Shown in pieces: positions 10,175 through 59,400 of a stretch of DNA of 64,000 nt. Made by a program: the position numbers and the translations under genes. Under the pieces are notes generated by a model. That model saw nothing but the letters and a program-made list of their open reading frames with translations. It was not told the DNA's origin and made no database searches. Source of the stretch: Lytechinus variegatus (lineage: Eukaryota > Echinodermata > Echinoidea > Temnopleuroida > Toxopneustidae); contig NC_054746.1 in NCBI RefSeq assembly GCF_018143015.1, forward strand, positions 42,846,201-42,910,200. Reading direction: 5' to 3'. How positions within the stretch are numbered: position 1 is the first letter of the stretch; each line of letters opens with the position of its first letter.

Positions 10175-10556
10175 CTAATCCTCATCATCGTAGTAATCCT
10201 GTTCCTCGCCCTCATCATAATCCTCCTCTTCATCTGTTGATCCATCATCAAGTCCCCTAGAAAACTCTATATAATCCACATAACCATCCTGGTCGATATC
10301 ATCATCCTCCAAGATCACATCAACTATCTCAATGATCCTCTCCTCTGACATCACCCCACCATGATGTCCTCCTCCTCCTCCTCCTGTATTCTTCCATCCC
10401 TCATCCACATGTAGAATAGACTGCATCAATTCCAGACCATCTAGTTTCCTGTTGTGGTCCATGTCATGGGAGTGGAAGTAATGAAACTGCAGTCTTTGAG
10501 GAGACATGTCAATGGCATCAACGTCTAATGTACCTTGAAGATGGGATCTGATGTGA
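10175..10556 (-). CDS. MCFD2-like EF-hand protein, proximal alternative terminal exon (isoform B)
   Basis: The acceptor CATACAG precedes 10556. The first base completes GA|T (Asp), the same phase as the distal exon, and 126 codons follow to TAG. The protein starts HIRSHLQGTLDVDAIDMSPQ, matching the MCFD2 wording before its first EF-hand. EF loops are DMDHNRKLDGLE and DIDQDGYVDYIE, with all calcium ligands present. It differs from isoform A by a Gly6-His2 insertion between the hands (encoded by a GGA/GGT run) and by a strongly acidic C-terminal tail of about 25 residues rich in Asp, Glu and Tyr. The joined protein would have 178 residues. It may be an alternative last exon or the body of a tandem-duplicated gene whose own first exon I missed. 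Confidence 0.8.
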
Positions 10557-11958
10557 CTGTATGGTGGATTGATGAATGAAAGAAAGGATTCCTCACTCAT
10601 CATTGTACACCATCATCCAAGTTCTTAATTCATAATGAGCACATCCTATTAACAAGTTACAAATAAACTTTATGTGTCATTCAAATACATTCCAAATACC
10701 GCACTAAAAACTGCAGTCTTTTTAAAATCACATGCTCTTATATCATATCAAACTTTTATTTGGGCAACAGCAAAAAAAGGAAAGATGAATGGTTCAATAA
10801 TCTAAACATTTAAAACTTGAAATGATCAGATAACGTCTTTCTACTTATATTTTCTCTCCTACACTAAAGAGGCCCACTCCTTGGATCAGTCCATATAATG
10901 GGCAACATGTGATTAGTTGGAAAAATCTTAGTTGAACAGAGCTGTCACAGTCAGTCAGTAAAGCGTACTTTCAGATATTGTTCTGATTTGGTCAATAATA
11001 ATTACCTATGCTAGAGAATGATAACTGTTACCAAATAATGACATATTCATTGATATGTTTCTCAGTCTGCTTCCATGATTCCTCAAATTGCTATTTAAGA
11101 TAAATTACTCTCTCTATTAATGTTTTTCTTTAGGCCAACAAACAGAATCTCACTTCACGTAGATCTAACCTTCCAACAAATAAGACAATTTTAACTTATT
11201 TTCCAAAACTAGTTTACATGTACATACTCATCATCTTCTTTGAAAAATATCTGCTCAATTGATTGTATTGATTTTTCAAACACCTACTAGACCTTATAGG
11301 TTAATACAACTTGACATTAAAAGCAAAATATGAATTGAAACTGAGTATTAGAGGTTTGACAACAATTCACCAAAGAATAACAAAGTTATGGATTTTATTC
11401 ACACAAGAGCCGCTCATTGCATCATGAGAAAAAAAATCCATACAGTCCGTAAATACTTTATTTCTCTGAAAATTCAATAAATTAGTAACATTATTTCAAA
11501 CAAGCTTCAAAATTCAAAGGGAAAATACTTTTACTCACCAGGAACTATCCCAAATGGGAATTTCTTGAAATTAAATATGTATCACATGACATGTGGACAG
11601 CTGGTCAAATGTGACCTCACAAATTTGTAAAGTTCTTATCGTTATAATTACTTTGGTGGATTTTTATCAAAACATTCATTGTCTTTAAACCAACTTGATG
11701 TTAGGGTGATCTTTCTAATCAAACCCTTGTTGATTTGTGGAAGTTGGAACATATTTAGTTGTTTCACTTAATTTCAGCAAAATTGATCAATACCTTGATC
11801 TAAAATTCTCCTTTTCTAACACTATATTCACAATTATTTTGATAAAATTTACTGTACTTGCAAATTATCCCTTTTTTTTACTGATTGACATATTTTCAAA
11901 AGGTCCTCCTGAAGCATTCAACTGAATGATAGGGGTAACAAGTGGAATGCCTCTGGCC

Positions 11959-21662: not shown

Positions 21663-22075
21663 GAAGCTATACATGTACAACAGCTTTTGCAACTCTTTTA
21701 TTTAAATATTGTAAAGAAATATATATATATATAATCCTTTACGCCTAGCATAAACTTTGAATTCATACATTCATTTTTATAATTGAATAAAGATTATAGA
21801 AAATATAATTGTCATGAAGAAGATGCTGACAATTTCAGTGGTGTCTGCGTCATAGGTAGCTCCTTTTTAAACTCCATTCCACAGAGAACAAGACTGGCGC
21901 TGAAAGACCCTTGAAAGACCATGAATTCTGGTTGATCTTTCAGAGGTCTTCGTGGTCTTCATGAGCTCCAAAACTTTTTGAAACGGTTCAAAACAGAGGC
22001 AACGGTCTTACAGGAAATTGGTCTTTCAGTGGTCTTTTGATAAAATTTCAATTTCAAAGGTCTTAGTCTTTCAAT

Positions 22076-22081
22076 GATCTT
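22076..22081. repeat. LINE target-site duplication GATCTT (left; right copy at 24042-24047)
   Basis: GATCTT ends the left family B segment and recurs exactly after the GAAGAAGAAG tail at 24042-24047. This marks the insertion boundaries. Confidence 0.8.
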
Positions 22082-23908
22082 AAGAGTGGAATTGTGATAC
22101 CAATCCATAAGGGCAAAGGCAAGAGCATTCAGGACCCCAAGAACTACAGAGGAATAACCATAACATCCTCACTCTGCAAACTACTGGAATTGGTATTGAA
22201 GCCTCATCTTGAGCTTTCACTTCACCTAAGTGACATCCCGGATGAACTCCAGTTTGGTTTTCGGAAACAGCACTCGTGCATCCTCACATCACTCTGCCTG
22301 GAACTGATTATTGAGCTTAACACCATCAACAACCAGCCTACCTTTGTGGCATTATTAGACGCAGAGAAAGCTTTTGATAAAGTTTGGCATGAGGGATTGT
22401 TCCAGAAACTAGATGCATCATACATCCATCCACAGTATGTTCACATGATCAGGTCTTTATACAATGATCTTCACATCCAAGTCCTTTGGGATGGCATCAT
22501 TAGTGAGGCCTTCCAGATAGAGCAGGGAGTGAGACAAGGAGGAGTCCTATCTCCACTCCTCTACTCGGTATTCATCGACGACCTGATGAAAGTCCTCCGG
22601 GAAAAGAACTTGGGATGCAAACTTCTGGATAGGTACTCCGGCCTCCTTGTCCTAGCAGACGACGTCGCACTGATCAGCTCATCACCAAGTGAATTACAAG
22701 AGATGTTGAATGTTACCAACAGCTATTCCCAAAGATGGAGGTACAAGATCAACCCTAATAAAAGCTGTGTAGTACCTTTCAACAATAAGGGTAAACATGC
22801 AATTCAGCTCCCGTCATGGAATCTTGGAAATGACACAGTACCAACATCTTCCCGTCATCCACATCTTGGCATCATAAAATCAAGTGACAAGAGAGACCCA
22901 ACAGAAAAGATCATCTCGAAAGGCTTACACACTTTCTATGCACTTACAGGAAGTGGAGCATACACAGGAGGCCTTCTACCACAACACTGTGCATCCCTGT
23001 GGAAGGTTTATTGCATCCCTCGTATGCTCTATGGAGCAGCTGTAGTACACCTCACGAAAGGAATGGAGAAAAGACTTGATCAGGCACAACATCAGCTGTT
23101 CAAGCAAATCCTTGGTCTGCCTAGAACAGCAGCAGATGAGGTTGTCTTCCTTCTCACTGGGCTCCTTCCTCTTCGTTCTCAAGTTGACCTTGAGAAGCTC
23201 CTCCTGATTGGACAAGCACTGGACCTCCCCCACACTAGATTTGAGTATAGGACTCTTCTACATGCTGTAGCCAAGACTACTCCCACTATCAAGTCCTGGC
23301 AGCTCATCTTAGACAAGTATAATCTCCCTGACCTTCACTCTCTTCTGCTCAAACCCATCTCCTACATCACTTGGAAGAAGATCTCAAATAGGGCAGTTAC
23401 AAACAAGGTTAAAGATGAGGTACTGGCTGCTATTGAGTCAAAATCTACTCTTTCGTTGTGGAGGAACATAGATCTACCAGCGGCAAACACACTATAACCC
23501 AGCTCCAGTAGCTCCCAGTTCCTAAGACGGGCTGTTGTCATCAGATCACAGTTAGTGAGTCAGACGTACCCAACTCAGTGCAGGCTCGTCTTGATAAAGA
23601 AGGCTACTTCTCCAACTTGTCGCCTATGTCATCAAGGTGATGAAGACACCATCCACTTCATAGCTAGATGCCATGTGTTTGACACTCAGCGTGATGAACT
23701 TCAAGAAGAAGTCAGAAAATTAGGCCTTCCTGCATCGATCTGCTCCTTATTTTCCCAAGACTGCTGTGAAGACTATGCTAAATCCATTCTATTACCTGTC
23801 CATCCAAAACTATTTTCTTCCATGCATGACAAGCTGACCACTAAACTCTTACTCTTCCTGCACAAAATCCACATCTCTCGTACCTCCTTTCTCTCTTCTC
23901 TCTCTTGA
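22082..23908 (+). pseudogene. LINE reverse-transcriptase ORF, 5'-truncated with one stop
   Basis: The frame reads KSGIVIPIHKGKG from the truncation point, then NYRGITITSSLCKLLE, LLDAEKAFDKVWH, QGVRQGGVLSPLLYSVFIDD and the catalytic block VLADDVALI (LADD where most have YADD or FADD). These are RT motifs in the usual order. A TAA at 23495-23497 interrupts the frame; downstream the same frame is open again to 23908. That part has a C-terminal zinc-knuckle-like CRLCHQGDEDTIHFIARC, found in several LINE clades. An alternative start at GTG 22094 has no significance because the 5' end is missing. The near-open frame suggests a fairly young copy. I cannot assign the clade beyond APE-type LINE. Confidence 0.85.
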
Positions 23909-37879: not shown

Positions 37880-38090
37880 TGGCTCAGTTGGTAGAGCGTC
37901 CGTCTCACAACCGGGAGGTCGGGGGTTCAAACCCTGGCCGCGTCAGACCAAAAGACGTTAAAAGATGGGAGTTGCTGCTACCCTAGCTGTTTGGCGTTCA
38001 ACAATTAAAGGGATAGAGCCTCGTCGACCTGGCGCTGCACGGTGGCTGCCGGGCCCACGATCAATTGGGCATAGCAAATTTTCGGAGTAT
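37880..38090 (+). repeat. tRNA-derived SINE
   Basis: The pol III box A (TGGCTCAGTTGG, 37880-37891) and box B (GGTTCAAACCC, 37924-37934) are correctly spaced, followed by a non-tRNA body (GATGGGAGTTGCTGCTACCC, then GGCGTTCAACAATTAAAGGG). The acceptor and T stems do not pair properly, so it is not a functional tRNA. The 3' limit is approximate. It lies about 400 bases upstream of the NXF1 start codon. Confidence 0.75.
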
Positions 38091-38472: not shown

Positions 38473-41400
38473 ATGTCGAGTTTTCAGCGTCATGGAGATT
38501 TCACAGTGACAAAATCTACTAAAGGAGGTGGTAGAAATTACTACGGTAAATATGAAAAAGCCAAAAGATGTTCTTTCTGTTTTGCATGATAAGTGTAAGA
38601 AAATATTTGTCGGTTTTCTCAATCATACTGCGTGTGAATGTTGAAAGGTAATGCCGTACGGTACGTATCCGGACGGGTTGTGTGTCCGGACGATCAATTT
38701 TAGAATGTCATTTGGAAAAAATTACCAGCAAAGTTTCATCAATTTTTAGCACAAAATGTTAGGAAATATTATAAAGAACAAAATAGAAAATGATTACAAG
38801 TAATGGATTCATATTTTTAGTGTAATCCACATACAAAAAAGAAGGCTTCAAAAAGATAAAGTGTCCGGACACCCGACCCCCCATCCTACCACTCCACTCA
38901 AGGGTTCAAATCGTCTCGTGTGTGAAGGATTCATATGCACCTGTGCACGCGAATCTTTCACACCTTTTTTACTAAAATAACTATGACTTTACATCGTAGC
39001 TAAGCATTATATTTGCGCTATGACACTTACCGAACCATATGGATCGTTTGTTGAATTCTCTTTGCTGTTTTTTTTAATAAAATAAGAGCATTTTTCGTGA
39101 TCTTCACGTAGATGCCTCTTGATCAGCGTTGATATCAACTTTTGCCTAAAGAGGGCGCGCGATATTATTTCAAAGCCGGTAGGCACTTAAGAACCAAGTT
39201 TGAAAGGATACTCGTAAAATTATGTCACTCTCGCCGATGAATATTCATTAGATCGTGGCCGTGCGTGTTCAATACACACTGAGTGCATGCATGCAGAGAG
39301 TTTGTATTGAACACGCACGACCACGATCTAATGAATATTCATCGCGACAGTGACGTAATTTTACGAGTGTCCTTTCAAACTTGGTTCTTAAGTGCCTACC
39401 GTACCTTTGTTTACGGTCTTGCAAGCTAGGCTGCTAGCTGCATTCTAGGCGATCAGCATTATTTTCTTGCTCGTTCAATCCACTTTCATCATCATCTTGT
39501 CAAAAGATGGCGTACTTTACCAATAAGTATATACGTGAGATGCAACCTGTTGATTTTTGGTACAATTTCCCATTATGCGCTGACGACTTGAATTGAGAAT
39601 GTTCGATACGAAAAATTGCTTTTCGCTTGTTGTTTGCGTACTTTCCACCGCAGTATTAAGGACGGATCGAACGGAGTATCCTGGTTGAGACTCGGAGGTA
39701 AGCGATAAAAACACTTTTATAAACAATTTCCAATTCATTTTTAAGACAAATTTAATTATTAAAATAATAATACGATAGTGGAGAAATACTGAAACGTTTG
39801 GCGTTTTTCATTCCCTCACATTCGTGTGATGAATGAAAACGTCAAAGTCCACTATGAAACCACATGCGTTGTGCGAGGTTAGTATTACTAACCTCGCATG
39901 TTGTGTGAGTGGTACGGTACATGCTGTACCGGTAATGGTAGTATGGGGGGACCTAAAGCTACGCACTTTGTTTTCAAACAATAAAAACACTCCCAATTTT
40001 AATATTTCAACAAATTATATTTCACTAATTTGTGGCAAACATTCTAAAGATCATTGACAAAGTAGAAAATATCACAAAACTCTCTAGTACGAAAATCCCG
40101 TCGTGTTTTTCGAACACCTCTTGATTTCGCGCTCCGATGTAGAAGGGGTCCTAAAGCTACGCACTCGATTTATCATGCAAAAAAATAGTATTTCCTGTGC
40201 TTCAATTTCTAAAATATATTCAAATTATTATAGGATAAAATGAAATTAAAGGGAATATAACTCCAAACTTCCTAACAGTTGTTGGTTTTCTCTGCATTTA
40301 GAGATTTACTGCAGCCTCTGTAGAAAAAATTTAATAGGAATTGTTCATCACTCTGCAGTCACAGTTCCACACACAGAGTGCGCATTTGCCATTGAAAACT
40401 GCATGCGCGATGAGTGGTGCGTAGCTTTAGGACCGGCGCAGCTTTAGGACCCCCTACCATATTTGTATGGTGGTCCCCAAGTCTGCGCACCTAATGATTT
40501 TAGTTAAGATTGAACATGAACTTCTTTTTATTTCACAAAATCTTTCTATTAATAATGTTCCTTATATTATCATGAGTAAATGTACCAAATATCTCATTAA
40601 AATTTGAAAGAAATATAGGATTTTCTTTAAAAAACCTTGGGCAGTCATTTTCAGATTGGAAAAAGAAAACGGTACCCTACCCACTCACACAACATGCGAG
40701 GTTAGTAATGCTAACCTCGCACAACGCATGTGATTTCATAGTGGACTTTGACGTTTTCATTCATCACACGAATGTGAGGGAATGAAACACGCCAAAGTCC
40801 TTGCAATATTTCTCCACTATGACTCTTGCAATTGAACATTCGTATTTTAACTTCATTCTAAAAAGGAATTATTTATAAAACTGTTTTTATCGCTTACCTC
40901 CAAATATCAAACCGTTCAATCCGTCCTTAGTTATCCTTTTATTTATTTATTTCACATCTTTATCCAGAGTAGCCTGTTCAGCTTTATACGAACAAATATG
41001 TATAATTACACAATATATACAATTAAAAAATTCATTAAAAATTGCTGGTCTTCCACAGGGCTCTGCATAAGTACCAAAAAAACCCATATAATTCATAACA
41101 TAAAGAAAACATATACACATCAAAGTAAGATTTGGCATGAGAAATTAAAAGGACATGGTAAGATAGGAAGAAAGAGATAGAGAGAGAGAGAGAAAGGGGG
41201 CAGAGGTAAACAGAGAGAGAGAGTTCAGGAGCAAAGGTAATTATGTAATATTTGACCAGTCAGGCATATTCTTATGAATAGCATAAGATAGCATAGGATA
41301 AAAACCAAATCGAGGAAGTAATCATGCATTTCTAATAAAACACGATACATGTAGCATGTGCTGTAAGTATGAGAAGTGATGTCATATTCTTATCTGTGAT

Positions 41401-44400
41401 TGCATTATATCATTTTAGGAGTAATTTAAAGGAGGCTGGCCGCTTTTCTAGTCGCGTAGCGTCCGGAAGGTTGTTCCACTTTGTGGCACCTGAATAAAGG
41501 AAAGAATTTTGATAAAAAGAGGTGGAACATTTTGGGAGTCTCAAAATCAGTTTATTTGATCGTCTAGAGTTCCTCATTAGTACGGTGTCTAGAAGTACAA
41601 TTCTACGTGAAAGTATAGGTGGGGCAAGTTCATGAATTATTCTAAACATTGTGCAGCAGGCAGATTTCCAAAAGAGTTTGTCCAATGTTGGCCAAGATAA
41701 TTTATTAAATACTTCATTGGACGGGGTTTCCCAAGTTAAGTGTGAAATTAAGTATGCTGCCCTTTTATGTAGGCGATTAAGGATATCGTAATTGACATCA
41801 CTTCTCCCTGTCCACACATTGCAACAATAGAGAATACGGGGCACTATATACCCCCAGTAAATCTGTGACAATTGTTCAGCGGAGAAGGTAGATCTCAGTC
41901 TCCTCAAAATACCCAACTTTTGCTTAACATCTTTTGCAACTTTGTTTGTATGACTCCTAAAGTCTAGATATGAGTCAATGATGACCCCAAGGCATTTATA
42001 TTCATTTACACATGCTATGGATTTTCCATCTATAATAATATCTAAGTTTTTATCTTGTAATGTGCAAACTCTTTGACGTGAACCAAGTAGCATTGTCTTA
42101 GTCTTATCGACATTGAGAATAAGCTTGTTTCGAATTAACCATTCATGTGTTCGCTTCATTACTTCATTAAGCTGTGTTTCAATGTCGTGTTTAGATGTGC
42201 CTGATACAGAAATGGTCGTATCATCAGCATACATGAACACAGATCCATTTGGAATACTCTTTCGTAGGTCATTTATAAATAAAAAAAACATTAGTGGGCC
42301 AAGTACCGACCCTTGGGGAAGACCTATATTGATATCTTTAATTGTCGACTTATTATTTTCTACAGAAACATACTGTTTGCGATGAGCAAGATACGAGTGA
42401 AACCATTTAAGACTACTTGCACTACAACCATACATTGCTAGTTTATCTAAAAGGAGTTCATGGTTCACAGTGTCGAATGCTCGACGTAAATCGAGGAAGA
42501 TAAGTCCATTCATTTTCCTATTGTCGACGTTACGAAACCATTCATCTATCATACAAAGAAGAGTCGTTTCACACGAGTGGTTTGGTCTGAAACCAAACTG
42601 GCTCAAGCATAATAGCGATCTTCTGCTTAGATAGGACATGAGTTCTGAATGGACAGCCTTTTCTATTACTTTTGATATAACAGGCAATATTGTTATTGGC
42701 CTATAGTTACTTGGGTTACTTTTATCGCCCGATTTGAAGATTGGTTGAACACGGCCAATTTTCCAAGCGTCAGGGAAGGTACACGATTCAATTGATAAAT
42801 TCAAAATGTATACAAGTGACTGTATTAAAATTGGTAGTTTACATGCATATTTCAAGAGTCTTACAGATAAATTATCATGCCCTGTGCTCTTTTTTACTCT
42901 TAATTTGTTTATTTCCGAAATAACAAATTCAGAAGAAATTGATGGCATCTCAAAAACATTGTTATCATGTACTGGTGCTTTATTTGTTGCATCCACGTCA
43001 TGCCTATGAGGTGCTAAATTATCGCTGTCAAACAGAATGCGATTGTAGTCAGATTCAGATACTTTTGCAATTTTTTCGACAGACTCAACAAAATAATCGT
43101 TCAAGTATCTGGCGACTTCATCTGCATCAGAAATAATACTTTCATTTACTTCCAGGCATATTTTATTATTCTTATTATTTTTACAAATGCTTTTAAGAAC
43201 TGTCCAGATTGCGCCAGAGTTTCCAGCGTTATTGTTTTTCTGTAACTGTATAAACTCACTTTTTGCTTCCTTGATTTTATGAGTAATAACATTTCGCATA
43301 CTGCGGTGGAAAGTACGCAAACAACAATCGAAAAGCAATTTTTCCTATCGAACATTCTCGATTCAAGTCGTCAGCGCATAATAGGAAATTGTACCAAAAA
43401 TCAACAGGTTGCATCTCATGTATATACTTATTGGTAAAGTATGCCATCTTTTGACAAGATGTTGATGAAAGTGGATTGAACGAGCAAGAAAATAATGCTG
43501 ATCGCCTAGAATGCAGCTAGCTTGCAAAGCCGTAAGTCTATGGGTACGGTAATACCATAAACAAACGGTAAGCACTTAAGAACCAAGTTTGAAAGGACAC
43601 TCGTAAAATTACGTCACTCTCGCGATGAATATTCATTAGATCGTGGTCGTGCGTGTTCAATACAAACTCTCTGCATGCATGCACTCAGTGTGTATTGAAC
43701 ACGCACAACCACGATCTAATGAATATTCATCGGCGAGAATGACATATAATTTTACGAGTATCCTTTCAAACTTGGTTCTTAAGTGCCTACCGGGCTTGTG
43801 AAAAATATCGCGCGCCCTCTTTAGGCAAAAATTGATATCTACGCTGATCCAGAGGCATCTACGTGAAGATCACGAAAAAATGCTTTTATTTTATTAAAAA
43901 AACAGCAAAGAGAAGTCAACAAACGATCCATATGGTTTGGTAAGTGTCATAGCACAATTAGAATCCGTAGCTATGATGTAAAGTCATAGTTATTTTAGCT
44001 AAAAAGGTGTGAAAGATTCGCGTGTACCAGGTGCATATGAATCCTTCACACACGAGATGATTTGAAACAATGGGTGTACCCTACCCTACCCCATGTCTGC
44101 GCACCCATTCACTTTGCACATTATTCAGGTATTTTGATGAGGAAGGCAGCATTTTGAGGCCGTCACATGAAATGCCCAAATTCATTATTTTTCCATCATA
44201 ACATATGTCTATGTGGTGCATGTGTAAATTTTGTGTTCGTTGGGTATCTTCTTTTACTAGAATCGCGCAGATATGCATGTGCACAGACAAGGGGGACTGC
44301 GCAGACTCTGGGAGCTTGCCATACTGTACCGGTACTGTTCCAGTACTGTTTTGAATGTGAGACCATTGGCATTGCCATTGATTATGAAGGGGGGGGATGT

Positions 44401-47400
44401 CTGCTCACCTAACTATTTTGAAGTTAAATTTTTATTCATGAATTTCTTTTTATTTCACAAAAAAATTAGATAATGTGAGCATTATTGTGATATTGGGAAC
44501 CACTGTTCACTTCATACAGAAGCCATTTATTCAGTCGCACGCACGGTTCCCTATTTCCACCTCCATTCACTTTGTACTCAAGTGCGCGTTTACAAATCGA
44601 CGAGTGGTTTCCGAAAGCACGATTTGGCCATAATGTTCCTTATATTTTAGTAGTAAAATATAACTACTATTTTTCTATGTTCTACTAGAAAACTACTATT
44701 TTTCTATGTTCTCTAAATTCTACTCACCAACTGTCTGACTTCTGATCCAAATTGGCACACTTGAGTTGATTCACGGAGTCCATGAATTAAGCTTCAAAGA
44801 TAATATGGAAGTGGAAGCTAGTGATTTCGGTTGTATGTTTATAAGCGATTTAGTCCGTTGAGGGCGTACAACGAATTGTGACTAGAGCTCTAGTTGAGAT
44901 ATTAAAGGGGAATGAAACCTTTGGAACCTTTGTGGGAATTTTTGTGGGAACAGAAAAATCAAAGAAACGGATCAACAAAAGTTTGAGAAAAATCAGACAA
45001 ATAATGAAAAAGTTATGAGCATTTAAATATTGCGATCACTAATGCTTTGGCGATCCTCAAATTGGCAATGCGACAAAGATGTGTGATGTCACTTGTGATC
45101 AACCCCATTACTTTAGTTTATATTTCACTTGAACTGCCTTCTTTATCACATCTATCAGTAGATCAATTTATTCTTTCTATAGGAGGGTATGTAATACAGA
45201 TTTTTAAAGAATTCATCATGGATAAAGAGTTTGTATCACCATCAGAAAAAGCAAAAAGAGACATTTTGGGGTATTTTATAGTCCATCAAAGGGAAAGTTA
45301 TTCACATGTGACATCACATATCCTTGTCGCATTGCCAATGGGAGGATCTCCATGGCATTAGTGATAGCAATATTCAAATGCTCATAACTTTCTCATTATT
45401 TGTCTGATTTTTCTCAAATTTTCTTTGTTCTTATTCTTTGATTTTTCCGTTTATACACAAGCCTACCTGTTCCAAAGGTTTCATTCCCCTTTAATCATTG
45501 CGAAAGTGAAGTCCAAAGTTATTGCACAATCCCAACACAACAGAAACTTGTTGCGTTAACTTTTTCGCGAAAAAGAAGAAAATGAATTTGAAGCTCCTCT
45601 ATGGCACACAGAAAATGCGAATAAAACAATCCACAGGTATGTCCACAGATGAAAAGATGAACTCAGAAATGCAGAACTGTATAACTCCAATATATATATA
45701 TTAAAAAAAATGTTCCAAAAATCTCATAAAGATACGGATACTGGTGTCAGTGTGTGCTGTGTAATCACAAATATGTTTTAATATGTAGGGCTTCTTCTGC
45801 TTCTTCCTGCTACTGCGGGCAAACTCATGATATAATTGCTACAGTCGTGTGTGGCTAGTGATGAATTTGAATTAATGATGATGTGCCCCCCCCCCCCCCC
45901 GATGAAAGTAGACATTTGAATTTTGCTTAAACTAATCTTAAAACTATCAACCGAAACTATCGGCAGGCTAGGGAATGTGTGATTGGTACAGAAGGTGGAT
46001 TTAGTACTGTATGGATATGGATATGGATTTCACACTCTGAAGACTGCTGAAGACTTTTCTATATGTTTACTCAAGAGTGGACTGCATTTACAGGGTCAAA
46101 TAGAATTTGTATGGTAAAGCCCTCCCCCCTGTCTGTGTGCTGTGCCCCTTGTCTGTGCATACATGTATCTGAGCTTAAGATTACTTATGATTTTGAAGTT
46201 TGAAAATGTTTTTTTTTGCCATTTTTCATCATATTTCTATTCAAATTTCCTTTGACTTTTGAAGATTGTTGCAAAGTTTTAACGTTAAGCGCAGTGGAAT
46301 TTTATACTGATACGGATTGCGCGCATTCAGTAATACAATACTGAATACATATACTGAACTAGCCAGCACATTCATTCACCACGACATACACCAAACACAA
46401 GATAATCTACTCACATGACAGTCCAAAGCAAAGAAAAGCCCCGACGTAAACTAAAAAAACCCTCCGAAAAGCAAAATTTTGTCATTAAATTAAGTGATGA
46501 ATCTGTGTCTTATTTCTGAACTATGCAGCAGGTAGACAGCTTGGCAGCCGTCTGTTTCGAGTAGTTTTTTAACATTTTTATTTATTTTTTTATTTCTCCT
46601 CTTACACAGACAGCTCGCTATCGTGCAGCCACCATTAGGGGGTTAACAATGCAAAATCCCCCTGACGGGGCTTATTGATTTTTGTCTTTATTCATTAAGA
46701 TATAAATGAAGAACTGTACCAAAATAAATTATTCCCTTTTGGCCTGAAATGCACCAAAACAAGGAAAAATAAACTTAAAAGGGAAAAAAACAGAGACTTA
46801 CTTCAGCTTTCGCGCAACTTCACTTCCGTGTTTTATCCGAACTCAATACATAAACATATGGCCATTGAGTCCCTGTACAGATCGAGCTACAACATTGGTC
46901 TCTGTATTTGGTGAGTGGAGCCAATGGAGTTCAGCGGAACAACCAACATTACAGAGACCAAAACTTTTGGTCTAGCAGTGTGTTAACTTAGACAGCGGAA
47001 ATTAGTCTGTTTGGAGGAGTTTTTAATCATTTTTTATGGCAGATTCTGTTGAGATGGCAGAGACCAACCATGATTTTTTATTCCTACGGTAGGCCTATGT
47101 ATTTTGTGCCAAGGGATAATCTAAGGATAAGCTTTAGAGTAATTGATTTTGAACTAGTTCATGTTTTGGGGTGTTTTTTTTCTCGACTTGGAAAAAAATT
47201 CCAGTGACTTGGTGAATTGAAACATTGTTTAAAATTTGATCATGAATTAGATCTGACCTTTTTATCACTTATTTTCAATGAATACTTGCAGGACATGATG
47301 ATCGCACTCGAGAAACACCAAGTGGCCACTGGCGAGGTGGAGGAAGAGGAGGGGGAGGTGGAGGAGGTGGAGGAAGAGGAGGAAGAGGCGGGGGACGAGG

Positions 47401-50400
47401 AGGAGGAGGAGGAAACAGAAACGACTGGGATCAGAGTGACAGATATGACCGAAATGATAACTTCAGAGGACAAGGACGCAATGACTATGACAGATATAAT
47501 GACAGAGATGGTGGTTATAGAGGAAGGGGTAGAGGTGGTGGACAAACAGGTGGTAACAGTGGAGGTGGAGGAAGTGGTGGTGGAGGAAAATGGAGAGGAA
47601 GTCGTGGAGGTGGTAGAAGAGATAAAAGGAGAGGAGGAGGAGGAGGTCATCGAGGGGATGGAGCTGGAGGAGGAATGAATAATAGGGATTCAGACCAAGT
47701 TCATCCAAGGTCAAGATTAGAAGATGATGATGTATCAATGGATGATGGAGACAATCCAAAAGCAAATTCGAGATTGTAAGTTCTATATATTTTTAATATT
47801 TTGAAACTAAAAAAATACCTCTGTCTCTTTCTTACTGTGTCTAATTTTGAAGAAAAAAAAATCAGTGAAGTTAAAAAGTGACAATAATAAATTGAATCTT
47901 AGTTTAAGCATCTTTAGAAAGTTGGTCACTAATACAAATATTTGTTTGTTTGTGTCTCCCTTTACCTTCTTGATAATTTTTGTACATCAGTAGCAGAAAT
48001 ATTCAGAGAATGTTATCCAATTTTCCTTCCATGCTGAACTGTTTGAAGAAAATATATGTATGTTTTGACATTGAGTTATTTATCTTAATATCAAATGTGA
48101 CATTTACCTCCTTCAGTAATCCGTATGGAAACCGTAAATCTGGAGCAAGTCAGAGGAGATCACAGAACAATGATAGAAGAGGAGGTTCATCACAAAGCTC
48201 TATGTCAAGATTAGGTTTACCATTCAAGGATGGTTCTAGGCATAGTGGAAGGGATGATGAAACATGGTGTAAAATTACTGTAAGTAGGCTTTTTATGCTC
48301 TGTTGGACATAAGGAGATAATCGGGCTGTTTTTAGAGGGGCTCTCAAATTGAATTGATGTTTCGGAATATTAAAAAAATAATGCAGTCTGACACCATTCT
48401 TTCAAAATGAGTAATAACTCTTTGTTTGTATAAGATGAAAATGAAATGGGGTGGGACAGAAATAAACATGAATAAATAACGTTGAAGAACACAAGAGGAA
48501 AGATAACTACACATGAAGGAGGTGCAGCCAATCTTTAAAGGAACATGGTCATGGATAAATGATGTTCAGGGCCAACACTTGTAAGAATCTTAGATAATCA
48601 GCAATATTACTAACAACTTTGCAAAAAAAATTCTAGTTTCCATTCTCATTTATTTCTTTTTTTTAGACATGTAGTGGTGTTCTTTAGTACTATTTTTTAG
48701 GTTTCTTTTTTTGTTGCTTTTCTATGATCAATACATTTATGTAGGTAGGTCAGTGCTAATCACAACATGTTACCCAATGGCTTGGAATCTTATAGTTGTA
48801 TGCATTTTATTAGTTAATATTTATTTATTAGTTAATATTATAAGTATCCGAATTATATTTAGAATCATTGTTTCATTTTCGTACCAGATACCATATGGGA
48901 AGAAGAGTGAGAAGGAATGGCTCATCAAAACTATCCAAGGTGCTTGTAAAGAACCTTTTATACCACAAGAGGTAATGCTAATCAACAGTCAAGAGAATAA
49001 AGGATTTTTATGTTTATCGATACTTCAGGTCAAAAGTGCATATTGATATAATGCTTTGTTACATGCTGTTACCAAATGCTTTTTCTTTCTTTTTTTTGAT
49101 GTAAATGATATATACACATGATAGGTATGGTTTCTTTCATTTTTGTCTTTGAAATTCAAGTTTTAACTTATTGAATTAAGTATTTTCCCCTATGATTATT
49201 TTTTCATGACTTGTTATGACTCGATGTCTTTCAATCATGGCAGTCTACTCCCTTTTATGATGTTTCATAAAATTGCAGATGAAAAAAAAATGACATCCTT
49301 ATTATAAGGCTGACAAATTTTTGTTAAGTACCTCATTTATCTCATTTTACTTTAGTTTAGTACCTCATTTACATGTATCTCATAATGCTAAAGCATGTTA
49401 TAAGAGGTATCAACATATTGTATATTCTTTCAACATAAAGGAGTGCCTTGAGCATTTAACAAGGTGGATGTGCATAAGTGCCCTGTATTACTTTAGACGG
49501 GGCTCGACATTAGCAGTGGCCCAGGGCAACCAGAAATGAGATTCGGGCCACTGAATTTCTGTAAAAGCCCACATGTGGTGGCCCTGTTGGGCTCCCAAAG
49601 TTTTGATGAATTGTAATGTTTTCTATTGTTTTAGGGCTACTAAATTTGCTCTGTGGGCCACTCAAAATATGATATTGATGATTTTGGTTGACCGAAATGG
49701 CCACTAAAAAAAGTTAGTGTGGAGCCTTGCTTTTAGAGGCAGTGATTTTCCCTATAAAAAATAGTCTTTTCCGTTTCTGAAAATCTGTAATTCCGTTTCA
49801 ACTTGGTCTAAGAATGGATTCCGTTTTGTCACTGAAAATGTACATAGTAAAAACCTGAAATTTGTTTTACAAAGGTGAATTCCATGAATTTTTACATGGC
49901 AAGTGTAAGACCCAAACAGAATTTCCATTTTATTTACTGGTAAAACAGAAAATAATTGTCCCTAATTAGTATCATATATTAAATTGATATGAAAAAAATC
50001 TAATTCTTTTGTTATTTTCTTTATTTTTACTCCTATTTTAGTTTACTTATGATAATCAGAATGCAATCTTTTATGTGGATGATTTAGCTACCGGTGAAGC
50101 TTTGAAAGATGTTAGCACCAGAATAACAACCCCAAGTGGATACAAGGTAATCTAAAGAATAGAATGTTTATCAGTACTGCTTCAAATGTCTTTGAAGATA
50201 TGCTGATTTCAAGCTTGTTGCTGACATTTTGGTGTTGCATGAGCTTGATTCTTACATTTTTACCAAAATTTAAAAGAAGTTTGTCCTGGGACCAATCTCA
50301 CTAGGTTTTGAGTCAATAATAATTATTTGTAAGCTCAGACTCCATGTAGGTTTCGAAAGCAGGCAATCTGCCTTGTGCTTCCAATACCAACCAATATCAC

Positions 50401-53400
50401 GGGTCGTGTGGTCCAGTGGCACGGGTCGTGTGGTCCAGTGGCACGGGTCGTGTGGTCCAGTGGTTAGAGCATAGGACTCATAATCGTAAGGTTGTGAGTT
50501 CGAATCCCAACTCTGCCATTGTCTCCACTTTGATAAAAAGGCCCGAGAGTGATATCTGTCGTCTATAACGTCAGCCACTATGACTGATTAACCTAGACGT
50601 AAAATGTTTCATAGGTAATTGGTTTTATACCAGCTTGGCGTTTACCAGCAAAATGCTGTCCTGCCGAGTTCCTACGGGAGTTACCACAAACAGAAAACAG
50701 AAAAAACCTTGAAATCACCTATTATGCAGTAGGGGAAGGCGGGGTAAGTTGAGCATAGGGGCAAGTTGAGCCACCACCCCCTGGCTAATAATGAGTGAGT
50801 CAGACATTGTGGTGGTTTCATGTATTGATGACCCATTGCATAACCCTTAACCCCACCACTTTTTTTTCAACTTTGAAACAAAAAGTACTTTTTTAGAGGG
50901 AAAAATGCAAATTTCAGCAAAAAAAGTGAAAAAGGGTTTGAAATAGATAAGTGCTTTTTACCCACACGTCTTTAAATATATTCTAGAAATAAGAACAATA
51001 TTGTTAGTCCAGTTATGGATTCTCATTCTTGTCATAATCTTTTACATGATGAATGCATAAGAAATGTGTTCATGTGAAAATATCGCAATAAGTTCGGACT
51101 GGGGTAATTTAAGCCAAATCAACATGGGGCAAGTTGAGCCATGGTAATTCTTATGGTGATGTATAACAAAAAATTAAAAAACGTAAAAAGCCATTAATAT
51201 GCAGGCAGAAAGAAGCAAATTCACATGACAGTTCTTTTACTTTTAGAAGATGTTAGTATTTATAGAGAATTAGCAAGTAAAAATACTTAAATGAAAAATT
51301 GACATCCTGGTTATTCCCGCATACATTTTGTACATAGTTTTTGTGGCTCAACTTACCCCAGACGGTGACACAACTTACCCCACATATGGGGCAAGTTGAG
51401 CCATTTGACATCGTTTTTTTCAAAGGTCACGATGACTTTCAGTGTGGGGTAGAAAGTTATATATAGGTGAAAAATATTTCCCAAGAATCAAATTTAAAGG
51501 CAAGGTACTTATTTCTACAATATTATTAGTCATATCAATTCTAACATGAAAAATGTAAAGTGTCACAACTTACCCCGCCTTCCCCTACTTATGCTTTGTT
51601 CCTTGGGTACATGGAGTGGAAGCTCCTAAAGCTCTTTAAAACACAGTGGGACAAAGAGCAAATTTGCCCTCTAACTATATAAAATAAAAGTGATTTTCAA
51701 AAAGTTGCAAAAGTGACCCTCTAAATTGATATTTGATTCTAACAATATGTAATTTTTAATTAACGGAATCAGAGTTAAAAAAAAAAAACAGTGGTTATAC
51801 AAAATATATTAGCCCCACCTGTTGGTGTGCATATGTTAAAATTGCAACACAAGGTATTCAGGCTGCGTAAATGTCACAAAACCATCTTTCTCAGAGAATT
51901 TATGATTGGGTCTAGACTGTAGAGTGTAATTAGTATTCTGAAACCTATTTCTTGAGAAGAAGTTTGATTTGTGCCGGGTAGAAGTGGGATCTTAAACAGA
52001 TTTCCCTGAATTGTGTTTTCTTTGGAAAGAGGATTCTTGAATTCAATTTTAACAATCTCTGGGTGTTTTACAAAGAGTGAAGGGTGAATTCACTTTAATT
52101 CACAGTTGCTTGCTGGATAGAACTCATCACATTACCCAGATTCAGCTTAGGGCTTTCCACTATAGACAAGTCAGCAGTGAGATCATGTGCTTAAATAACA
52201 CGTCCATGATGGCTCTAAGGCATGATTTAAATCAAGTTTAGCTCTTTTTTAAAAAGGGTTATATTTGATAAGTGATAAGCCATGCATAGATCAGAGTTGA
52301 AGTTTGGTATCCCTTTCTTTATGCTGTAAAATCAACATGATCTTGTTGCTATGAAGTGAAAAGAAGAAGTGAAGTAAATAGATGAATATTCATCATCGGT
52401 TCTAAGAAATTCATCTTGTAAGCACTTAAATTGTTTTCTTTTTACAATCACACAAAGTGTAATTTTCTGTGTAATTCCCCCGCAGATCATCATTCAGACT
52501 CGTCCATGCAGACCACCCATGAAATCGGTGTTTAATGAAAAAGATCTTGATCTACTCAAACAAGTTATGAGCAGACGTTACGATCCCTCAGCCAAATCAC
52601 TAGACCTTGGGAATCTGACAAATGATGCTGGTAAGTAGTAATGTCCCCATCTAGGACCATGTAACATAAAGAGATACAGTTAAAATTTGCTGTTGATTTA
52701 TAATATGTTGTGCAGTTGATTGTTATCTGTTATGTTCCTGGGTCCACAAGGTATACGCATGAGAGCGATGGTTCAAGATTTTGCATGAGATAAAAGAAAG
52801 ATGCTCAATTCAGTGTAGCCGAGCTGCATAGTGCTCCCTCTTTCATGAAATTTTTATGTTTGTGGGGGGGGTTTCCAAGTCAATTTATTTGACATTGAAT
52901 TCTCTGCTTCTAGTTAATCTGAATGTTGTAAAGAGACAATTGATATACTGTACTGCATTATTTTTTTTTAAACAGATTTGAAAGGGAAGCTGTTCCTCAT
53001 TGTAGAAAGACCAGCCCACTTTGCTGCAATCCTTAAAATAATTACTGAAAACATTCCAGAGGTAATTTTAATAAAAAAATGTTTTGTTTTGTTTTATGTT
53101 TATTGTATCATATTCATTTTGCTCTTACTGTTCTTCATTTGTGTTCTTGAAGTAGTAGTAAGATGTTTATCTTTTTTGAAAACATATTTACCAATTTTTT
53201 TCTGGCAGAATCTTTTCTCATGAAGGTCAAGGAAGCAGTATCATTACTGTTTTGTGGTATTTTGTAATAGATTTATAACTAATGATAATACTTCTGTCCA
53301 CTTACAAAAGGAAGCAAGTGATTCTTTTCAAAATTGATTTGAGATTAATTCTCCTTGTTCTACTTGACAATAAAGGAATTGGAGTCCCATAACCCCCATT

Positions 53401-56400
53401 TTCTAAAATATAGATGTTTCAAGAAGAAGTTATTCAAAACATTTCCAAATAAAACAGTGCCACATTTTCCTCATTTACTAAGACACTCATACCAAAGAGT
53501 TTCTGCTTTTGACAGTTCTTGGCAGAATGCTTTTTCACATTTCATTAGCTCTTATCTGTTATGCATAAAATACAATACATTCCTATAATAGGTATCTTTT
53601 TTTTGCTTGACTTTTCTATTCTGCCCTTTCAAAAAAGTATTAAATTGAGTATTTATGTTTAGATACCATTATACTGCAGTTTCAAATTGGAATAAAATGA
53701 CTAAGTTATCTTTTAAATTTATTTTGTAGATGACAATACTTCAACTTGATGCTAACAAGCTATACAATCTGAAGAGCATGTCTGATCTACCGCTTAAGAT
53801 GCCAAATATCACAACACTCAGCCTGGCACGTAACAATGTAAGTACATACGAGAAGAAAACTTCAATATTTTCGTAGATCATTTATACATATACTCCATTG
53901 GAGTGAATGTTAAAAAGAGTTAGTTATTATGTAATTGTGTAGTTTTTGTTAAGGTGAATGTATCTTGTTTTGTTCTGTTTTTTATGATGAATAGAGTAAA
54001 TGCTATAAAATCAAATCAAAATAAAATTTCTTGTTTTTTTGTATCATTTTCAAATACTATTCTTGATCATGGAAACTCTTATGAATAGAAATCAGAACAC
54101 TGGAGGAGAATTTGAGAGGGGTGCAATGTTGAACAAAAGTATCAAGTGTTGTATCTAGACATGTACAATCAAATACACGAATGAGAAATTGCCAGAGAGG
54201 AAAACAATCAATCCATATTTTTTTTAATATGTATGTTTGTAATTTGTATGTGTATAATAATCATAAGAATTTGTAATCAATATTTTCCCATAGTTGAGAT
54301 CTGAAGGAGAGCTAGACAATCTGAAAGGACTCAAGCTGAAGGAGTTAACTCTCGATGGTAACCCTCTATGTGATAACTTCAGAGAACAATCAACATATAT
54401 CAGGTATGGCTGAATGATTCCAAAGGGTTCCAAGCTGGAGGTTGGTTCCAGGAGGATAGCATCTTGTTACCAAGCAACAAGATGTCATCTGGTCCTGAGA
54501 TGCTACCGATAGGGTTTGCCTGACGTGGCAGTGCCCTTGGTTTTCATCCTAAGAGATAGAATAATAAAATAGGAATGTTGTTGGTTTTGAGTCCTTTGTA
54601 CCTTGCACTGTGCCATTCATTTGAGCCAATCAAAGTTGTATAATCCTCAATGTATTCTTATGCTTTCTCTTTCACATAAGATACTGGCATGTCTCAGTGA
54701 TTTTACAGTGTATACATTGTTTGCTTTGACAAAATGTATCCCTTGCACGTACAGTGTGTTTTATTGCCTATCTGCTCTAAGTGTAGTAAAGCTCACTACT
54801 GACTACTTGCTAGTCTATGGTCATTTGGTTTTCCTTTTCGTCTTTTGGTGAATAGATAATTGATTCCATTTGACATTACCTACATTGCATCTTTTCTTTC
54901 CACTGAATGTTCTGTCACTTGATGAAAATATATTTTTATATATTTTCATCTTCCCTTTGAAGAATTATCATTTCTGAGAGGCAGGGTTTCTCTGAAAATC
55001 AGAGAATGAAAACAGGGCTTCATTTATTTTGTTGGTTTGCATTTTTTCAGTCTTTTTTCTCCCCTCATGATAGATATAATTTTCATGTCGTATACAAACA
55101 TAAAAAGACCATTAAACTATTTGCTCATTGATCTTCAAAGGATTTTGATTTGGAAATTGCATATCATCTAGCACTATTTCATCCTGTGGTATATGTAGTG
55201 CTGTGTTTTATCCTATATATCTTATCATTTCTTCCTTCCAACTCCTTTGTAAAAATCTGTTTTAGAATGGAGTGAACTCTTTCAAATACCAGGCTTTGAT
55301 AATCTTTACAATGAAATAAATAGAAAAACCAGGAGTATACTTGCTATTTAGTATACATTGCCAAACTTTGCCCATATTCCTAATGATTCTGTAAGCCGTC
55401 TGTTGAGATACAGATGAAAATCAGCAAAAACAAGTTGAAGGATTGTAAAGATGAAAAGAAGCTGCTTTCAGTTATTATCTTACCAATTTTGGTTATTCAT
55501 CTATGCAACGGAAGCATGTCTTGAGAAGATGTTGACACAAGTTTTCCTGACATATCAACCCGATGCAAGTATGAGTGTGAAGTTACTATCGTCATTACAA
55601 CATAAGTCACTCTACTGGTATCTTCAAGATTCTTGGATTGCATCAAAGGCACAACTTAAAGCTCAAAGAGAACAACAGATGAAGATCCAGGAATGACCAT
55701 ACGTGATCATCATGTGACAATAGTCACTGCGGGTCCCGACTGTTTAGAGCGTCCATGACGGGTAAGATCCTCATTGTAAGAGGGCAACCTAAGACAGACG
55801 CTCAAACGGGGGCTTGCCATCGGTACACCTCTGCTCCTCACTGAAGAAGTAGCTCAAACGACTACACAGATGAATTAAACATCATCTTGATCTTTGTACC
55901 TGAAGTATGAGAATTATCTACAGTATAAGGTATCCAAACCCATTGGTTTGAAGAAGAAAAAATTACGAGAGCAAATAGCCCAAAATGGGTACTTCACATC
56001 ACATCCAGTCAAGATTAAGCTTTGGATAGGGCATGTTTGGCATTGTTGTACTGAGTATGCTTTGTATTAACTGGAAAAGGTCATGAAAATTTGACACTAT
56101 TTTCATCCTTGATTTTTCATTCACTGGTATTTGATGTGCTCACTTCATTCCTATTTGCTCTTATGTTATGTCTGCTTTTGTAACCTAGTCCTTTCCATTT
56201 CATTTCATCTGTTTGTTTAGTCTAGGAACAAATACTTATAATCTTTAAAATTAAACTAGGCTGGTATGTAATGTAATGTTAAAGAAAATAAGTATAAATC
56301 AGGGTTTGTACAAATTTGTTCAATTCATAGACTCTCTGGAAATATAAATTGGAAATACTTTCTCCAGAAGCAAAGCGTCTGGGACAGTCTGAGAATTCAC

Positions 56401-59400
56401 TCCAATATTTCCCTTACTATATGAATTAATGCTCAAGCTGGCCTTGAATACATGGCGCTCCATTTTAGCAAGTCCCTCATATATTTACTATTTTTCTGCT
56501 CTGGGAAATCTGTGTCAACAATATGAAGTGTAATAACCTGGTAGGAAAAAAAGTAAGACCAATATCCACAATCTTAACATAAACATTTAGAACTTAATTT
56601 GTGTTATCTACAACCATTCAGTGAGTATGGAGGTAAGTTTCTTTATTGCCATTTATTGAGCCCTTATGATCACTAGACATACCAGCTGCAGTCAACATCA
56701 CTTTGTTGCTTTGCTTTCAAGTTCATATAGAGTGTCCTTTTCATATCTGCCGTAGTCCTGTGATTTTCATAAATATTTGAGGAATGGAATAGTTGTTACA
56801 ACCTAACTATTTGATAAAATTCTGCAACTTTCACGAGGTTTCTTGTTTCTCTTTCACAATGCTAGAAATACTGATCATATTGCTTTCTTTCTATCAGTCT
56901 TACACGGTACAAGATGTATCATAACATTGGGATTTCCAGCTTCATGAATTAATTCCTTACCTTCATCTTACTCAAATCAATCACTAGGCAAAAATTATAA
57001 ACCCTTTTTTTAGCAGACTAAATTCTGTGGGTAAATATCAATTAAATCAGATATTCAGTGATTTCAAGTTTGATGTTGGGTCAAATTTTTTTATAAACAC
57101 AGCACCAAGCTTCAATTGAAGCTGGTATTAGGACTCTTATCTTGTTGAGCTATCAGTGTGATTTGGATCATCTTGGTATACTCACATTAGTTTATGGAGC
57201 TAGGTAAGGCAATCTGAATTGCCACCAACACTGAACTTGAAATCACAGGTTTCCATCCAAATTGCAACTTCATTAAATCTGCTCAAGAGCGTGCGTTATG
57301 CGGTAATGTTCAGATTCTACTAAAGAATTACTCGAATTTGCAAAGGATACTTTGGTATACTATCTAGTTGCTATTGCAGAAGCTGATCCTAATTTTTGTA
57401 TTTCTTTCAGCGCTGTTCGATCAAGATTTCCCAAGGTAGAGATCTTGGTGAGTAGATTGTTATCATCAATGTCATTTTACTTCATGATTTGTTGAAGAAT
57501 GTGAACCTCTTGCTTGTATGTTAATTTCATGGTCAAAGGTAAATGGCATTTAATAAATTTTGATATGGAGACATATATTATACAATAGACCCAACAGTGA
57601 TTTTATTTCTGTTTCTTGTCAACTCATGGAGTTTAGCTTCATATCTTATGAAACTTTCTTGAATAGTGAGAACATGTATTAATACACACCCCTGAATGAA
57701 ATCTAATGAGATTCATTCTTTTAGTTAATTTGTTTAATGATCAGTGAATCATTGATTTCTATGTATTTGTCTATTTATGCATTTTCATTCATTAATTTAT
57801 TTATTTATTTACATATGCATTTATTCAGTTAATGTATTTAAGGGGAGTAGTATTTCAGTTTATATGTTTTGAAGTATGCAATCAAACATGTTTAAGAAGA
57901 ATGATTTCAAACCATTCATATTTTTTGTAAACAGGATGGAAGCACACTACCCCCTCCTATCAACTTTGACCTGGAAGACACTGCTCCATTACCCCCTATG
58001 CAACCAAACTTCTTTGCAGGGGACCAAGTCAAAGCAATCTTGGTTCCATTCTTGGAAAGGTATTCAACATTTTTATTCTAAAATGCAAAATTTAAAGTAT
58101 TTTCTATAATTAAGTATTCTTGTTTTATTCCTGTTTTTTATTCAGGTTTTAATATAAAAATTCTAGTGTTTTAGTGATTTTAGAGTGTAGTAAGAGTCAT
58201 TAAAACATTTGGAGCCTTCTTATTTCTAAGGTTACCCGAGCTGAAGTGAGAGTTATATCATCTAAAAGTTCTAAGGAATTGCAAAAAAAATATATTAACC
58301 TGTAATGTGTTATGTATGTGCTTTGCAAGAACAGCATATATTTCTTATTGCTATAAATTTGTTTTGATGAAGTATATTGTATTATCTTGGCTATTTTTTA
58401 TGTTTGTGTATCTCAAAGGTTCTTCAAAGTATATGATTCCCATGACAGACAACCACTGCTTGAAATCTATCATGATCAGGTAAAATAAGCATTTGAGAAA
58501 TCTGAATCAATTGGTGACCATGTGGCCTATTATTTTCAAGTTTAATTAATTGTGTGTTAAAAATTCTCTTTTGTCAGACTTCATGGGGAATTTGAGACTA
58601 TTAAACTCTGTTCATTATCGGTTCTAGTTATATAACAATTAGCAGTTATGTAATGCTTATAAAAATTGCATCAAAGTGTTGAGTCATCACCTGTTTCGTC
58701 AAAAAATATCAGAAGCAGGTCAATGAATGTCTGGTGCGACAGCATAAATATTAGCTGACCCCTAAAGATAAAACGAACATTCTTTGCAATGCTTTTCACA
58801 GGTTTAATGAAATTTAGGATTGTAGATTCTACTTTCATACATACATCAGTACAGAAGGTTGTATTAGCCCATCTCCAGATTTTAGCTAATGTTTAAATGC
58901 CATTTCTTAGAGTGTAATTAATGCTGCCACGGACAGTATATGCACAATATTCTTACGAAACCTATTTAATAGTAAATCTATTTCCGGTTTATTCATTTCA
59001 ATTTAAAACTTGCCATATGAATATCAATATATACTAGTTCTAATTTGTTTATGTTGCAACTTACTCAATTGATGACTGTAAATGTGATTTCCATTTTTTT
59101 CCTACGTCCAGTCAAGTTTCTCATTATCAATACCTTTGAACATGGAGCCTGGCCAAGGGAAGACCCGTCTTAGCCGTTATTTGAGAGAACATCAAAGCCG
59201 TAATCTACTTGTCACAAAGGACCCAGGTTAGTGCGTGTTTCATTTCTAGAGATTACAGTCTGACCTTACTCAGTTGGTTGTGTTGTGATCTGGCCAGCCA
59301 GCTTCCATATATATGTTCAACATGCCTGAAAGTCTCATAACCTTAGCCCTCTTCACCCTCTATCATTGATAGGTTGCTCCATTATGTTACTCTTTTGTCC

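Follow-up and report, generated by a model that had tools for sequence, protein, structure and literature searches.

A CTE-Like Hairpin in Intron 9 of a Sea Urchin NXF1 Gene Suggests That a Self-Regulating Loop May Be Older Than Vertebrates

Introduction

Does the NXF1 gene of an invertebrate carry, within one of its own introns, an RNA element that might be recognised by the very protein that it encodes? In mammals, a constitutive transport element (CTE) has been placed in intron 10 of NXF1 (Li et al. 2006, as cited in PMC6478720, PMC5602073 and PMC5095910), and the passages of these three papers dealing with the vertebrate short form of the protein derive it from the retained intron 10 with its CTE. 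The question is raised here by a stretch of 64,000 nucleotides from the sea urchin Lytechinus variegatus (contig NC_054746.1, positions 42,846,201 to 42,910,200 of the forward strand; hereafter the window, to which all coordinates refer), in which a sequence-only reading had noticed a CTE-like hairpin, assigned it to an intron of NXF1 and proposed that the gene marks this intron for export. None of the literature matches listed describes such an element for the NXF1 of an invertebrate. The analysis of the hairpin, of its host intron and of the predicted product suggests that the self-regulating loop of NXF1 may be older than vertebrates.

The NXF1 Gene and Its Intron 9

The identity of the host gene is borne out by both the exon model and the protein matches. 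A protein search carried out with the exons of the gene returned, as its three best matches, sea urchin forms of nuclear RNA export factor 1, i.e., those of Lytechinus pictus (87%), Strongylocentrotus purpuratus (81%) and Diadema setosum (61%), the query being one exon short; exon by exon, the identity to the L. pictus protein was mostly 90-100%, and every one of the 16 NXF1 matches scored genome-wide falls at this locus. Ten coding exons, all on the + strand and with GT-AG splice sites, keep an open frame along the L. pictus protein: exons 1-4 (38473-38545, 47292-47775, 48117-48279 and 48888-48971), exons 5-8 (50042-50146, 52486-52630, 52976-53061 and 53730-53837), exon 9 (54294-54403) and exon 10 (57411-57447), with more exons downstream. 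The intron hosting the hairpin is number 9 by the count of coding exons; according to the exon model and to the tails of short isoforms, it is a phase 2 intron of 3007 nt (54404-57410, + strand). Its borders read ...STYI AG/gtatgg ... tttcag/C GCT GTT CGA (the slash marking the splice site), exon 10, of 37 nt, completing the S codon that exon 9 leaves open. The donor CAG/gtatgg agrees with a simple consensus at 7 of 9 positions, and the nine other donors score 6 to 8, so it is not weaker than these.

Other features of the window were named by eye: a 644-codon reverse transcriptase-like (retrotransposon) open frame in NXF1 intron 1 (41410-43344, - strand), a 476-codon reverse transcriptase-like one at 22067-23497 (+ strand), and, at 10175-10612 (- strand), an open frame whose calcium-binding motifs resemble EF-hands and which may belong to an exon of an adjacent gene. 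When the 64-kb window was compared with Rfam, no CTE family was recovered, and the gathering score was reached by two tRNA matches only, perhaps tRNA-derived short repeats, at 50446-50518 (+ strand, within an NXF1 intron) and 37880-37936 (+ strand), with 35 and 30.5 bits against a cut-off of 29.

Sequence and Fold of the Hairpin

All the pieces described for the hairpin in the sequence-only reading were recovered on the + strand, exactly where they had been placed. The closing stem of 7 bp is formed by the 5' arm GAGCGTC (55747-55753, + strand), which pairs with the 3' arm GACGCTC (55797-55803, + strand) with probabilities of 0.99-1.0, and beyond some bulges it reaches out to 55729-55817; the whole CTE-like hairpin, with one internal loop of the NXF1 type, thus spans 89 nt on the + strand (55729-55817). 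Inside the closing stem, the 5' loop strand CATGACGGGTAAGA (55754-55767, + strand), whose terminal part GACGGGTAAGA occupies 55757-55767 (+ strand), has its GGGT paired to ACCT. There follows the inner stem, at 55768-55784 (+ strand), whose arms TCCTC (55768-55772) and GAGGG (55780-55784) pair with a probability of 0.76-0.82 around an apical loop of 7 nt, ATTGTAA. On the other side, the 3' loop strand AACCTAAGACAG (55786-55797, + strand) carries the AAGACA motif (55791-55796, + strand) in a 6x6 internal loop, and the G at 55797 doubles as the final base of the loop strand and the first one of the GACGCTC stem. Both strands have a published counterpart: the primers printed by Katahira et al. 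for the SRV-1 half-CTE contain AACCTAAGACAG, matched at all 12 positions, and, on the complementary side, GACGGGTAA, which corresponds to the reverse complement of the reverse primer (PMC4330393).

The element is also more stable than expected by chance. The z-score of the 89-nt hairpin is -3.71, none of 200 shuffled sequences being as stable, and that of the 59-nt core is -3.54 (1/200); for a wider stretch of 151 nt the signal is weaker (z -1.60, 8/200). In the fold of these 151 nt, the arm 55729-55817 consists of 30 pairs, with probabilities above 0.9 for 19 of them and of 0.71-0.90 for the other 11. The centroid fold lacks the G-C pair adjoining the inner stem, which leaves 2 nt opposite 4 nt (1 opposite 3 in the viral half). 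The composition of the intron changes in the region 55300-56100, where it shifts from T-rich to A-rich, with an AT skew of about +0.07 to +0.20 (mostly negative elsewhere in the intron) and a GC content of up to 0.475, like that of an exon or a functional RNA block.

Rarity of the Element

The comparison with a covariance model was replaced by a test based on a loop-plus-stem descriptor, since there was no match to an Rfam CTE; in the region 55600-55950, Rfam gave three unrelated matches at E up to 10, far under their gathering scores. Moreover, the order of the strands is reversed in the half-CTE primers, which leaves no colinear alignment on which such a model could be based. The descriptor consists of 17 loop bases and a 4-bp stem, and was run on the intron and on 24,898 dinucleotide-shuffled copies of it. 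The real intron fits it with no mismatch, while none of the shuffled introns does so with 0 or 1 mismatches; their best score was 2 mismatches in 8 copies, 3 in 51, 4 in 759 and 5 in 6061, the remaining 18,019 having no site with 5 mismatches or fewer. The single loop proposed in the sequence-only reading agrees with the presence of one perfect descriptor site in the window; a second, symmetric loop like that of the two-loop viral CTE was not found either in the window or in the intron, where the next best site has 4 mismatches.

The loop was then searched for in the whole genome (869,567,369 bases in 33 contigs), with the same pattern read backwards as the control. The full loop pair, with 23 fixed bases and a free gap, occurs once, and the control never does. 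A looser core of 16 fixed bases (GGGTAA...ACCTAAGACA) occurs twice in the genome against 27 times in the backwards control, a difference for which composition may account, and the second genomic copy has no closing stem; the opposite strand order of the core gave no matches in the genome and two in the control. Within the window, single loop strands with mismatches allowed are no commoner than in shuffled sequences, and the exact pair is found once, against 0 of 100 shuffles.

The core was also met at 12 other loci, of which four lie in viral contigs, seven in prokaryote genomes and one in the urchin genome itself. There, the closing stem has 0-1 bp and the inner stem 0-3 bp, counted in one register and without bulges, compared with 7 and 5 bp in the urchin element. 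The four stretches from viral contigs, which represent two distinct sequences (L001, L003 and L004 being identical), lack the stems of the urchin element and were discarded as candidates; the seven prokaryotic ones, with closing stems of 0-1 bp, served as a chance control.

Position of the Intron Relative to Vertebrate Short NXF1

The sequence-only reading placed the hairpin one intron further upstream than in mammals. This is wrong and depends on how introns are counted: urchin coding intron 9 agrees, in both codon and phase, with the point at which vertebrate short NXF1 proteins diverge (STYI/R). Thus, of the interpretation originally given, the CTE-like identity, the NXF1 intron and the single loop stand, and the displaced position has to be abandoned.

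This conclusion comes from the comparison of at least 238 NXF1-type proteins (the best 120 of 142 matches and the best 120 of 298), 139 of which are shorter than 560 aa. Among the latter, 28 diverge right after STYI, usually continuing as STYI-R-S-V, 54 have the normal next exon, and 57 show neither pattern. The 28 include mouse NXF1 isoform 2 (P0126) and elephant shark NXF1 (P0162), and several are NXF2-type paralogues. Five further proteins (P0144, P0149, P0188, P0205 and P0238) have R at the divergence codon, yet fall outside the search pattern; P0114 and P0132 are cut near the STYI codon but keep S there, contrary to our reading of the position. The change from S to R at the divergence codon is explained by AG/G being read across a phase 2 donor, and, since the urchin read-through yields the same change as the short isoforms, position and phase coincide. 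From the papers cited in the Introduction, we infer that the vertebrate intron at this codon is number 10, and the short proteins compared here would represent the isoform retaining it. Judged by these comparisons, urchin intron 9 is orthologous in position to the intron into which vertebrate short NXF1 is read.

The Predicted Read-Through Product

In the urchin, reading across the donor gives AG/G TAT GGC TGA, that is, the retained-intron codons R-Y-G (54404-54413 including the stop, + strand) followed by TGA at 54411-54413. The predicted protein has 455 aa, ends with STYIRYG, and still has two Pfam domains, Tap RNA-binding and LRR_NXF1-5, with all the parts encoded downstream gone; the two RNA-binding domains are together named the CTE-binding module in PMC4330393. 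A search with the urchin short form retrieved two proteins, the vertebrate-like P0223 and the insect-like P0238, neither of them from an urchin. Among the best 120 of 142 matches of the protein search with the exons there is likewise no urchin NXF1 from the 'lgn' source, so the absence of an urchin short form says little. P0238 is a short NXF1 of 316 aa from a contig of 3345 bases, 41% identical to a katydid protein, ending with STYIRYNFQVF and diverging at the same codon.

The residues that would contact the RNA are neither better nor worse conserved than the rest. Of the 20 CTE-contact residues listed for human NXF1 (PMC4330390), the urchin has an identical residue at 9 and a similar one at 12, the identity over the region being 47%; in zebrafish the corresponding values are 13, 18 and 60%. 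As the identity at the urchin contact residues is no higher than that of the region, this conservation is average and the evidence neutral.

Discussion

The most convincing explanation of these data, which in our opinion is likely to be correct, is that the urchin NXF1 gene carries a genuine, single-site cellular CTE through which the message retaining intron 9 would be exported to give a short NXF1. In a transcript from which intron 9 has not been removed, the hairpin would offer a single internal loop (an ACCU/GGGU helix beside a 6x6 loop with AAGACA), the NXF1-NXT1 complex would bind this loop and take the unspliced message to the cytoplasm, and translation there would produce a short NXF1 whose stop is located three residues (R-Y-G) beyond the last whole codon of exon 9. 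Such a protein should keep the Tap RNA-binding and LRR domains and lose the NTF2-like and UBA regions, and might act in a feedback or as a cofactor. A stop placed far upstream of later exons ordinarily invites nonsense-mediated decay, and this weighs against the explanation, as do the donor of intron 9, which is no weaker than the others scored, and the junction of the centroid fold, which departs from that of the viral half.

It can also be imagined that the hairpin does bind NXF1, but that the outcome is a negative feedback with no functional short protein, an excess of NXF1 holding or exporting the unspliced RNA, which would then either undergo nonsense-mediated decay or be kept untranslated. 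The fact that retention sets a stop three codons on, with more exons downstream, fits this idea, as does the addition of RYG only, compared with the 18 residues following STYI in the P0121-type short form; on the other hand, the truncation point is that of annotated vertebrate short NXF1 isoforms, including mouse isoform 2, and the CTE-binding module is kept in the read-through product, so that we consider this outcome rather unlikely. A quite different possibility is that a retrovirus or retrotransposon inserted in the intron brought with it a viral-type CTE, the match reflecting insertion and not descent. Retroviruses are known to carry such elements (PMC4330393, PMC7551171), and reverse transcriptase-like open frames, named by eye, do occur elsewhere in the window. 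Against this, the 721 bases at 55380-56100 gave no second copy when searched for in the genome, the one candidate scored being the block itself, and hence do not belong to any dispersed repeat visible to that search, and the loop pair is single-copy as well; in the region 54400-57420 the direct repeats are pairs of 17-25 nt only, with no flanking LTRs or other copies found, and the intron has no ORF of at least 120 aa, no tandem array and no match elsewhere in the window. Furthermore, the insertion would have had to land by chance in the one orthologous intron. An insertion appears very improbable, though one that is old, decayed and has no other copies is conceivable. The idea that a random hairpin simply happens to contain the loop strands is harder still to believe: the data do come from one species only, but the loop pair is unique in the genome and unmatched in shuffled sequences, the matches elsewhere have no stems, and the element sits in the one gene and intron where it would be expected.

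If a genuine cellular CTE is indeed the correct explanation, a further question concerns its age and origin. One paper reportedly describes CTEs in zebrafish and coelacanth and conservation of the NXF1 CTE from fish to man. It is quite possible, although we would stop short of calling it probable, that an NXF1-binding element has resided in the same NXF1 intron since before the split between echinoderms and vertebrates, and that the loop is host-borne, having been captured or copied by type D retroviruses and not donated by them. Were this confirmed, the best understood gene exporting its own unspliced message would date back to the deuterostome ancestor, not to fish; it would follow that a loop of about 20 nt can persist unaltered over such a span even when its stems do not; and it would become possible to test whether the transfer ran from host NXF1 to type D retroviruses or the other way. 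Sea urchin embryos would represent a simple system in which to test the role of a short NXF1.

Comparison with Known Systems

The CTE-like identity originally proposed for the hairpin is strongly supported by the comparison with the type D simian retroviruses (SRV-1/MPMV), in that both loop strands are those of the published SRV-1 half-CTE primers (12/12 nt for AACCTAAGACAG and 9/9 nt for GACGGGTAA) and the two sequences, folded as two strands, adopt a very similar scheme. In these two-strand folds, the succession is a stem, a lone A facing 2-3 nt, the ACCU-GGGU helix, AAGACA opposite NNNGAC, and another stem. The differences concern the junction opposite the single A, where the urchin has two unpaired nucleotides, a G-C pair and a bulged A, the last two setting the junction apart from the inner stem, whereas the viral half has three unpaired nucleotides; and the side of GACGGGTAA, which is 5' in the urchin and 3' in the primer-defined half. 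Moreover, the urchin has one loop and the virus two, the sequences of the flanking stems differ, and viral genes are absent from the urchin element. The AAGACA motif is reported to bind NXF1 in the MPMV and NXF1 CTEs (PMC4174252, PMC4330393). It is also shared with the stem-loop of the gammaretroviral gamma-CTE, a comparison concerning the short motif alone; that element is located in the viral pol and, as described in the same source, is active as 4-8 tandem copies, a changed AAGACA having served there as a control (PMC4174252).

The closest likeness in terms of genomic context is that with the CTE of mammalian NXF1 intron 10: the same gene, a single loop, AAGACA, and an intron following the divergence codon of short NXF1. 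The size is also near, since the human CTE is described as a single-loop element of 96 nt (PMC6478720) and the urchin one has 89 nt. The host is a vertebrate in one case and an echinoderm in the other, and the comparison was made through the described features of the mammalian element.

Finally, an intron-containing transcript of an invertebrate NXF1 gene is already on record for Drosophila sbr (Dm NXF1), where it is called analogous to the vertebrate one (PMC8151460); it differs from the urchin case in that the relevant passages of that paper mention no CTE for this transcript and give its targeting by SBR as unknown. A hint that the intron read-through may be older even than the split between echinoderms and vertebrates comes from the insect-like P0238, truncated at this very codon, and, taken together with the Drosophila transcript, this is in agreement with the idea that reading into the intron at the STYI site may predate deuterostomes.
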